From contig NZ_LT906446.1 of the NCBI RefSeq assembly GCF_900187035.1, positions 1,612,001 to 1,676,000 of the forward strand: 64,000 nucleotides of DNA, given 5' to 3'. Positions 17,436 to 59,060 of the stretch are shown here, piece after piece. The stretch comes from Megamonas hypermegale. GTDB taxonomy: Bacteria > Bacillota > Negativicutes > Selenomonadales > Selenomonadaceae. The position numbers and the translations under genes are program-made. Under the pieces are notes generated by a model, which saw only the letters and a list, made by a program, of their open reading frames with translations, had not been told where the DNA came from and did not search any database. Numbering within the stretch: the stretch's first letter is position 1; every line of letters begins with the position of its first letter.

Positions 17436-18017
17436 TTATTTTACTTTTTTACAAGTAACAATATAAACTGGATTTTGTGCATTAAACATATCATAAGAAC
17501 CAATCTTGCGCAAACGATTAACTTGCACTTGAATTGCTTCATATGTGTAATTTTCTTTTTTTGTCATGTATTCTGTAATCTGTGCTATCGTTTGAATGGT
17601 AACGGCATTTACGATAATTCTGCCACCTGTTTTTAATTTAGTATCAATTAAATCCAAAATTTCAAACATATGCTTTCCACTGCCACCGATGAACACAACA
17701 TCGCAACTAGGTAAATCATCTAAACCTTTTGGTGCTTCTGTAGCAATGACTTCTACATTATTTTCTAATTTAAATTTAGCGATATTTTGATGCAATAAAT
17801 TAACTGCTAAATCCTTTTTCTCTATAGCGTAAACTTTTCCCTGTGGAGCAAGTAAAGCCGCTTCAATGGATAAAGAGCCTGTGCCAGCGCCAATATCCCA
17901 AATGATATCATCTGGTCTAACCTTCGCTTTGCACATCGTCAAAATGCGAATTTCTTCTTTTGTCATCGGCACTTTATCGCGAATAAATTCTTCATCTGCT
18001 ATTCCTGGTAAATTCAA
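17436..18017 (-). CDS. cbiT: Cobalt-precorrin-6B C15-methyltransferase/decarboxylase (CbiT)
   Basis: This 193-residue class I SAM methyltransferase has IWDIGAGTGSLSIEA (motif I) and DVVFIGGSGKHMFEIL, the CbiT signature. It methylates C15 and decarboxylates the C12 acetate. It is encoded separately from cbiE here, although the two are fused as CobL in many bacteria. Confidence 0.94.
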   Translation of the reverse strand: MNLPGIADEEFIRDKVPMTKEEIRILTMCKAKVRPDDIIWDIGAGTGSLSIEAALLAPQGKVYAIEKKDLAVNLLHQNIAKFKLENNVEVIATEAPKGLDDLPSCDVVFIGGSGKHMFEILDLIDTKLKTGGRIIVNAVTIQTIAQITEYMTKKENYTYEAIQVQVNRLRKIGSYDMFNAQNPVYIVTCKKVK

Positions 18018-18050
18018 TAATACACCAACTTTCTTTCTATAATTTTTATA

Positions 18051-18677
18051 TCAACCTTCTACTATCATCACGCAATGAGAAGCTATTTCCTTTGTCTGTG
18101 CTTCTTCTAAGGATAAACAAGCAATTTTTTCATCGGGATAAGACAATCTTGAACAGATATACGCTCTTGCATTTTTATCCCAACCGCGTTCTATTAAATA
18201 TTCTGCAATACGCCCTGAATTAAATTTATTATCCGTGAGCATACCGATAATTCGCCCTTTAACGTATACTAAATCTTCATCTTTTGGCACTCTGCCATGA
18301 AAACTAAGTAAACTTGCTTCTTGCCATGGAAGTGCTATCTTAGCAAATGCAACTTGCATTGAACTAAGCCCCGGAATGACTTTTATCTGCTCAAGCGAAA
18401 AATTCTTTCTCAATGAACTCAGCAAAGAATAATAACCTGGGTCTCCTGACACCATCACAACTACATCATTTTGCTTTAATTCTTCACCGATAAAGTTCAT
18501 AACTGCTTTGATATCAGCTTTTATAGCAAAAGTCTTTTGACCTTCTCGTGCAAAATCAGCTAAAGCCCTACTGCCACCGACTAATACTTTTGCATTTTCA
18601 ATAGCTTTTAAAGCTTTTGGCACTACATATTCTCTTGCACCGGGACCAATGCCAGCTACAATTATTTTAAATTCCAA
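18051..18677 (-). CDS. cbiE: Cobalt-precorrin-7 C5-methyltransferase (CbiE)
   Basis: This 208-residue tetrapyrrole methyltransferase has VAGIGPGAREYVVPKAL at the N-terminus, VVMVSGDPGYYSLL as the SAM loop and VIPGLSSMQVAFAK after it, the CbiE pattern. It overlaps the end of cbiD by 16 bases, so translation is probably coupled. Confidence 0.93.
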   Translation of the reverse strand: MEFKIIVAGIGPGAREYVVPKALKAIENAKVLVGGSRALADFAREGQKTFAIKADIKAVMNFIGEELKQNDVVVMVSGDPGYYSLLSSLRKNFSLEQIKVIPGLSSMQVAFAKIALPWQEASLLSFHGRVPKDEDLVYVKGRIIGMLTDNKFNSGRIAEYLIERGWDKNARAYICSRLSYPDEKIACLSLEEAQTKEIASHCVMIVEG

Positions 18678-33011: not shown

Positions 33012-33047
33012 AAAATACTCCTGACTACAATATACTTTTATTAAAAC

Positions 33048-34121
33048 GATGAATTGTCAATCCAAGTGCGACACTTCTTTTAAAAATAAATTAAATGGAT
33101 TATCCCAATTTAAACATTTTCTTGGTCTACTATTTAATAATATTAATTTTTTTATTAAATCATCATTAGATATTTGTCCTAAATCTGTTTTCTTTGGATA
33201 ATATTCTCTTAATAACCCATTTGAATTTTCGTTGCTACCTCTTTGCCATGCTGCATAAGCATCTGCAAAATATACTTTTATATTTAATTTTTCTACTTCT
33301 TTGTAACATGCAAATTCTTTTCCTCTATCTGTTGTAAATGTTTTTAATGCCTTTTTTGGTAGTACTTTCACTAACTTTTTTATTGCTTTTAGCATTGATG
33401 ATGCTGTTCTATCTTTTATTTTTATTGCCACATAAAATCTTGTTTTTCTTTCTACAAATGTTGTTAAACAAGCTTTAGCTTTTCCTCTACTAGATACTAT
33501 GGTATCTAACTCTCAATGTCCAAAAGTTTTTCTACTTTTTACATCTTTTGGTCTAGTTGTGATACTATTTCCTATTAAGAATTTACCACGTGTTTCCTTT
33601 TTTCTACGTTTTCCTTTATGTCGTAAATTCTTAAGTGAAATACCTTTTAATTTACCAATATAAATCCAATTATAAATAGTTTTAAAGGAAAGTTTACCAT
33701 TTAAAAGTGCATTAGAAATCTGTTCTGGAGACCAGTTTTCATGTAATTTTTCAGAAATAAGATTAGAAAGAACATCATTGTATTTACTAGAGCAAGAAGA
33801 ATTTTTACGACGTTCAAGATATTTATTGTGAGCAAATGAAGAGATATATTCATTTTCAATTTTATTACGAGATAGTTCTCGAGCAATAGTAGAATGATGA
33901 CGATGTAAAAATTTAGCAATAAAACGAGTAGAATAACCTAAAATAGAAAGAACCTCTATACGAATACGTTCTATACGAATACGTTCAGATATAGTAAGAT
34001 GATGATAGCTCATTATGAATTTTCCTTTCGTGTGGATTTTGTGTGGTAACTTTATTTTACACGAAAATTCATAATGAGTTTTTTATTTTTTTAGATGTTG
34101 CACTTCATTATACAATCCATC
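33048..34121 (-). mobile_element. IS30-family element, copy 1 (1074 bp, 4-bp AAAC duplication)
   Basis: The element is bounded by imperfect inverted repeats: left GATGAATTGT, with GATGGATTGT as the complement of the right end. AAAC lies directly outside both ends (33044-33047 and 34122-34125) as a target duplication. It differs from copy 2 by a 15-bp tandem duplication and a few base changes. It lies between the moeA promoter and a terminator-rich spacer. The transposase gene inside is oriented on the minus strand. Confidence 0.9.
33057..34013 (-). pseudogene. IS30-family transposase with an internal TGA (copy 1)
   Basis: The continuous frame from 34013 to 33057 reads as a 318-residue IS30 transposase, except for one TGA at 33515-33513 within RKTFGH-stop-ELDTIV. 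A Trp is expected there in the catalytic domain. The HTH (ISERIRIE, about residues 8-22, partly doubled by the 15-bp repeat at 33956-33985) and the D-D-E residues (ELDTIV, TTDRGKEF, NENSNGL) are otherwise intact. Unless the TGA is read through, the protein stops at 166 residues. Confidence 0.85.
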
Positions 34122-47756: not shown

Positions 47757-47765
47757 TATTCTTAT

Positions 47766-48824
47766 GATGAATTGTCAATCCAAGTGCGACACTTCTTTTA
47801 AAAATAAATTAAATGGATTATCCCAATTTAAACATTTTCTTGGTCTACTATTTAATAATATTAATTTTTTTATTAAATCATCATTAGATATTTGTCCTAA
47901 ATCTGTTTTCTTTGGATAATATTCTCTTAATAACCCATTTGAATTTTCGTTGCTACCTCTTTGCCATGCTGCATAAGCATCTGCAAAATATACTTTTATA
48001 TTTAATTTTTCTACTTCTTTGTAACATGCAAATTCTTTTCCTCTATCTGTTGTAAATGTTTTTAATGCCTTTTTTGGTAGTACTTTCACTAACTTTTTTA
48101 TTGCTTTTAGCATTGATGATGCTGTTCTATCTTTTATTTTTATTGCCACATAAAATCTTGTTTTTCTTTCTACAAATGTTGCTAAACAAGCTTTAGCTTT
48201 TCCTCTACTAGATACTATGGTATCTAACTCTCAATGTCCAAAAGTTTTTCTACTTTTTACATCTTTTGGTCTAGTTGTGATACTATTTCCTATTAAGAAT
48301 TTACCACGTGTTTCCTTTTTTCTACGTTTTCCTTTATGTCGTAAATTCTTAAGTGAAATACCTTTTAATTTACCAATATAAATCCAATTATAAATAGTTT
48401 TAAAGGAAAGTTTACCATTTAAAAGTGCATTAGAAATCTGTTCTGGAGACCAGTTTTCATGTAATTTTTCAGAAATAAGATTAGAAAGAACATCATTGTA
48501 TTTACTAGAGCAAGAAGAATTTTTACGACGTTCAAGATATTTATTGTGAGCAAATGAAGAGATATATTCATTTTCAATTTTATTACGAGATAGTTCTCGA
48601 GCAATAGTAGAATGATGACGATGTAAAAATTTAGCAATAAAACGAGTAGAATAACCTAAAATAGAAAGAACCTCTATACGAATACGTTCAGATATGGTAA
48701 AATGATGATAGCTCATTATGAATTTTCCTTTCGTGTGGATTTTGTGTGGTAACTTTATTTTACACGAAAATTCATAATGAGTTTTTTATTTTTTTAGATG
48801 TTGCACTTCATTATACAATCCATC
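47766..48824 (-). mobile_element. IS30-family element, copy 2 (1059 bp, 4-bp TTAT duplication)
   Basis: It has the same ends as copy 1 and is flanked by TTAT on both sides (47762-47765 and 48825-48828). It lacks the 15-bp repeat of copy 1 and differs at a few bases. It lies between fbp and the antiporter gene, with its transposase pointing away from the antiporter. Both copies are in the same orientation, 13.6 kb apart. Confidence 0.9.
47775..48716 (-). pseudogene. IS30-family transposase with an internal TGA (copy 2)
   Basis: The frame from 48716 to 47775 encodes a 313-residue transposase interrupted only by TGA at 48233-48231, the same site as copy 1 (expected Trp before ELDTIV). D-D-E residues and the HTH are present. 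The N-terminal part alone is 161 residues. Confidence 0.85.

Positions 48825-56135: not shown

Positions 56136-59060
<2,925 letters not shown>

Follow-up and report, generated by a model that had tools for sequence, protein, structure and literature searches.

The IS30 family and related modes of control

The closest described systems are the insertion sequences (ISs) of the IS30 family, whose prototype is IS30 of E. coli. These elements carry a single transposase frame, with an N-terminal helix-turn-helix (HTH) and an rve/DDE catalytic domain, in about 1.06 kb of DNA. Short imperfect terminal inverted repeats and short target duplications are typical of them. In E. coli, IS30 minicircles devoid of an intact transposase gene are integrated when a plasmid provides the IS30 transposase (PMC9333248). 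A similar dependence is seen in non-autonomous IS copies and MITEs, which have intact ends and a broken transposase of their own, and which are moved in trans in genomes that hold an intact relative. Another way of limiting transposase output is programmed recoding, such as the -1 frameshifting of the IS1 and IS3 families. The recoding signal in these two families is ancestral and conserved family-wide.

The elements described here, from Megamonas hypermegale, share the architecture, ends and target duplications of the IS30 family, but differ in that a nonsense codon interrupts the transposase in three of four copies. They are also like non-autonomous copies, although the lesion is a point mutation and not a deletion, and near-full length is retained. 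As with programmed recoding, a stop codon of this kind would limit transposase output; in contrast to it, the TGA is derived in one lineage, and sister copies carry TGG.

Two copies with an in-frame TGA

Two of these copies lie in the window, i.e., the whole stretch of 64,000 nucleotides that was analysed. Their features are as follows:

33048 to 34121, minus strand: IS30-family element, copy 1 (L001), 1074 bp; ends and length, full-length DNA match in its own genome
34122 to 34125, unstranded: target duplication GTTT, left side of copy 1; perfect repeat at the element end
33044 to 33047, unstranded: target duplication GTTT, right side of copy 1; perfect repeat at the element end
33513 to 33515, minus strand: in-frame TGA replacing Trp (TGG), copy 1; frame and copy alignment
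33513 to 34013, minus strand: truncated product of copy 1, 166 aa, DNA-binding half with no catalytic residue; ORF and HTH_38 match
33057 to 33512, minus strand: untranslated remainder of copy 1, rve domain with the D-D-E residues; frame and domain match
47766 to 48824, minus strand: IS30-family element, copy 2 (L003), 1059 bp; ends, DNA match in its own genome
48825 to 48828, unstranded: target duplication ATAA, left side of copy 2; perfect repeat at the element end
47762 to 47765, unstranded: target duplication ATAA, right side of copy 2; perfect repeat at the element end
48231 to 48233, minus strand: in-frame TGA replacing Trp (TGG), copy 2; frame and copy alignment
48231 to 48716, minus strand: truncated product of copy 2, 161 aa; ORF

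Both transposase frames are read on the minus strand, and the TGA (33515-33513 in copy 1, 48233-48231 in copy 2) is located inside the motif RKTFGH*ELDTIV, at the codon for the Trp that precedes the first catalytic Asp of IS30-family transposases. The original prediction, that both window copies share an in-frame TGA at a conserved Trp, is thereby confirmed: among 69 aligned segments from relatives, 63 have TGG at this site, five have Phe and one has TAG, in a set slightly biased towards Trp because one of the six peptide search patterns included the tested residue. The remainder of the protein is intact, as had been claimed. When the TGA is translated as a residue (Trp), HTH_38 and rve (integrase core) are matched above the curated cut-offs, one on each side of the stop, and both frames are open up to the normal terminal TGA with no further stop. 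The 4-bp duplications, described earlier as fresh, are perfect around both copies.

After the stop in copy 1, the frame has no ATG, GTG or TTG until the GTG at 33431, which is already past the first catalytic Asp. As all start codons after the stop are past this residue, a product of re-initiation would never contain all three catalytic residues.

Two other features of the frame were observed. Near its N-terminus, copy 1 has a private 15-bp in-frame tandem duplication at codons 11-20 (ERIRIERIRIE, the added unit being ERIRI). Further, in the frame at 33057-34013 and in the intact copy L004 described below, third codon positions are T-rich (about 60%) over the first 130 codons and A-rich thereafter. 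This switch is absent in the seven relatives examined (Peptoniphilus and others), and the frame is possibly a chimera.

Copies in the genome and derivation of the stop

The host is represented by one closed genome of 2.23 Mb with a GC content of 33.7%. A DNA search of it for further copies, the check proposed along with the original prediction, returned four full-length copies and a 104-bp remnant. In addition to copies 1 and 2, a third copy (L002, G000:C1:847189-848248) carries the TGA. The fourth (L004, G000:C1:332915-333997) has TGG, an uninterrupted frame of 313 aa with the N-terminal HTH and rve intact, and its own perfect target duplication. It is located on the same chromosome, is 97% identical to the TGA copies and, by protein search, is the sole intact relative of the copy 1 and copy 2 transposases in this genome. 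The 4-bp target duplications are perfect and all different across the four copies (GTTT, AAAT, ATAA and ATAT), and the terminal inverted repeats read GATGgATTGT.../GATGaATTGT.... Comparison of the TGA copies among themselves shows differences at 2-3 of 1059 sites, and comparison with L004 shows 27-28.

Similarly, in the genome of a sister species of the same genus, both copies that cover the site (L079 and L083) have TGG. A second set of relatives, comprising 30 further loci, 28 of which were recovered by whole-protein search, has TGG at 27, Phe at two and a gap at one. The presence of TGG in L004, in the sister species and in nearly all relatives indicates that TGA is the derived state. About ten further derived changes are common to the three TGA copies and absent from L004, L079 and L083; the shared TGA is thus no coincidence. 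By these alignments, the TGA arose once, and of the three insertions at least two took place after it. The comparison covers one closed genome per species as regards the strain distribution of TGA and TGG, and the TGA form was found in none of the other genomes searched, namely the relative sets and the sister species. Outside the genus, searches for the same IS gave for the most part relatives with identities of about 70% or below. In one such distant IS30 relative, from a Mailhella MAG (L075), TAG occupies the same Trp codon, which means that a nonsense codon at this position arose more than once.

A locus 76% identical to the flank of copy 1 with the tRNA-Ser gene occurs in the sister species; this 3.2-kb locus contains no IS end. 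Copy 1 is inserted into the run of T residues of an intrinsic terminator (34152-34131). A strong hairpin adjoins four of the six insertion sites (those of L001, L002, L004 and L083), a number too small to speak of target preference.

A conserved hairpin over the transposase start

The transposase gene of these elements has another feature that bears on its expression:

34009 to 34078, minus strand: leader hairpin of copy 1, with its 3' arm over the ribosome-binding site and start codon; fold z-score, covariation in relatives

In copy 1, CTCATTATGAATTTTCGTGT pairs with ACACGAAAGGAAAATTCATAATGAG upstream of the transposase, with a minimum free energy of -26.1 kcal/mol and a z-score of -4.83. The hairpin is likewise present in copy 2, L004, L079 and 18 relatives. 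In an alignment of 21 leaders of this IS30 subgroup, which is mainly found in Firmicutes (Peptoniphilus, Anaerococcus, Paenibacillus, Streptococcus and others), the stem over the start codon is kept through compensatory changes, with 90.8% of cells paired. Cells in which both sides have changed number 37, against 9.3 in shuffles, and pairing falls to 27-40% when the register is slid. No Rfam family matched this hairpin.

Structures at the 5' end that guard a transposase gene from outside transcription are known from IS10/Tn10 (Davis 1985) and IS200 (Beuzon 1999), both listed among the references of PMC2965389. By analogy with these, the hairpin probably protects the transposase gene from transcription that enters from outside. 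It is thus very probable that a conserved brake already acts on the transposase output of this IS, and because the hairpin is equally present in the TGG copy, there is less reason to regard the TGA as a brake. The hairpin would be a known type of control, and it is more interesting than the TGA itself.

A promoter-like arrangement was also noticed at the ends of the element (33048-34121). The right end contains TTGACA and the left end TATAAT, and if the ends were joined into a circle through a spacer of 1-2 bp, the two would be 17-18 bp apart. Junction promoters are known for other copy-out-paste-in elements. The motifs are suggestive of a junction promoter that the joined ends of an IR-IR circle would form. 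A transcript from such a promoter would include the leader hairpin, which is puzzling.

Decoding of UGA and rival explanations

Within the window, 13 of 54 genes end in TGA. The host prfB gene, which encodes RF2 (L118, G000:C1:688962-689987), contains the classical frameshift site, ATG...GAA ATG GGG GAT TCA CTT TGA C, and downstream of it the RF2 frame resumes in +1; an early UGA of this type occurs in about 87% of bacterial RF2 genes (PMC5009743). An anticodon scan of tRNA genes at 55 places found no UCA, and the best match to SelB in the host is below the family cut-off. The prfB frameshift site, the genes that end in TGA and the lack of a suppressor tRNA or SelB in these searches together indicate that UGA functions as a stop codon in this host.

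Particular forms of recoding were also considered and rejected. The single tRNA-Trp has the anticodon CCA and a normal C11-G24 pair, which rules out a suppressor of the Hirsh type. Selenocysteine decoding was rejected as well, there being no SelB above the cut-off and only one match above the cut-off to the tRNA-Sec model, namely a tRNA-Ser with the anticodon UGA. An alternative code in which TGA means Trp was rejected too: the fusion frames obtained with table 4 (17436-18677 and 56136-59045) look like adjacent ordinary genes with normal TGA stops.

It could be argued that the stop is read through at a low rate, as Trp or another residue, so that the copies would be self-mobile and the TGA would act as a brake. 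Near-cognate misreading of UGA would insert Trp, which is the residue normally found at this site; the frame beyond the TGA is intact in all three copies, and these outnumber the TGG copy three to one. However, read-through is not required when the intact L004 is present, and the 2-3 substitutions between copies show a TGA lineage so young that an intact frame is no sign of selection. Private changes in single TGA copies are few, and the two that lie 3' of the stop (Ala to Thr, in L001 and L002) are both non-synonymous; these fit the absence of constraint, as expected, although two changes are no test. The stop is not conserved among related elements; the host has an RF2 with UGA-dependent autoregulation, and neither a suppressor tRNA nor SelB above the cut-off was found. 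A search of a collection of papers returned no case of UGA read-through in transposases. Functional read-through is therefore very improbable. The original prediction had offered tolerated read-through, as a way to limit transposase, as one of two alternatives; this one is unsupported, as UGA stops translation in the host and the TGA is derived in one lineage only. Natural misreading of UGA at a low level would be compatible with the sequence, yet it is not needed.

The truncated product of 161-166 aa might instead have been kept because it represses the intact copy. It includes the HTH_38 domain, and DNA-binding fragments that inhibit transposition are known from other elements, such as InsA of IS1 and Inh of Tn5. 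Selection on the fragment is, however, not evident; amino-acid changes have gathered in its DNA-binding half (codons 47, 54 and 69), and the lineage is young, so a retained repressor is given little credence. Even less can be said for a combined scheme, in which a little read-through transposase and a repressing fragment together keep the TGA lineage and let the stop form outcompete the intact one. Gene conversion would explain the distribution differently: the copies would have been in place already, and homologous recombination would have swapped TGG for TGA in two of them. Gene conversion associated with IS30 is on record (Olasz 2003, as cited in PMC9333248), and the older copies look mosaic, since codons 75-76 of the TGA lineage are as in L083 and unlike L004. 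The TGA copies nevertheless agree across the whole element, including both ends, so that conversion would have had to run from end to end each time; new insertion is simpler, and conversion is regarded as unlikely. An error of sequencing or assembly has practically no probability, as one closed contig holds TGA in three separate copies, with about ten other derived changes in common, and TGG in the fourth.

Probable mobilisation in trans

The explanation that is very likely correct is that of a non-autonomous IS, with its transposase inactivated by one derived TGA, that was moved in trans by the transposase of an intact relative. In such a course of events, a single G-to-A change would have converted TGG to TGA at the conserved Trp, once, in one IS30-family lineage of the host. 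The transposase would thus have been split into a DNA-binding fragment and an untranslated catalytic half. As the TGA lineage has retained its terminal inverted repeats, transposase supplied in trans could recognise and move the element. At least two later transpositions of the TGA form would then have given three near-identical copies with fresh target duplications. The enzyme would have come from L004 or from a similar intact copy since lost; of these two, L004 may be the actual source.

The transposase of the TGA copies is inactivated, and an intact relative with compatible ends is present in the same genome. Transposition after inactivation is supported by the presence of the TGA at three distinct sites with different target duplications, gene conversion being a minor alternative. 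One observation goes against mobilisation in trans by L004: in the TGA lineage, the left inverted repeat carries changes at two positions, 23 and 27, that are absent from L004. Evidently, these were no bar to movement, or they were acquired late. The other alternative of the original prediction, a defective parent mobilised in trans, is thus supported by the find of L004, with its intact TGG frame, 97% identity and own target duplication.

Mobilisation in trans of an IS that bears a stop is an ordinary event of a known kind and carries little surprise. The locus provides an example of an IS copy with a dead enzyme that would have multiplied on the enzyme of a sister copy, with an intact copy still there. 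It also illustrates that an in-frame stop common to several copies of an IS is, by itself, no evidence of recoding.
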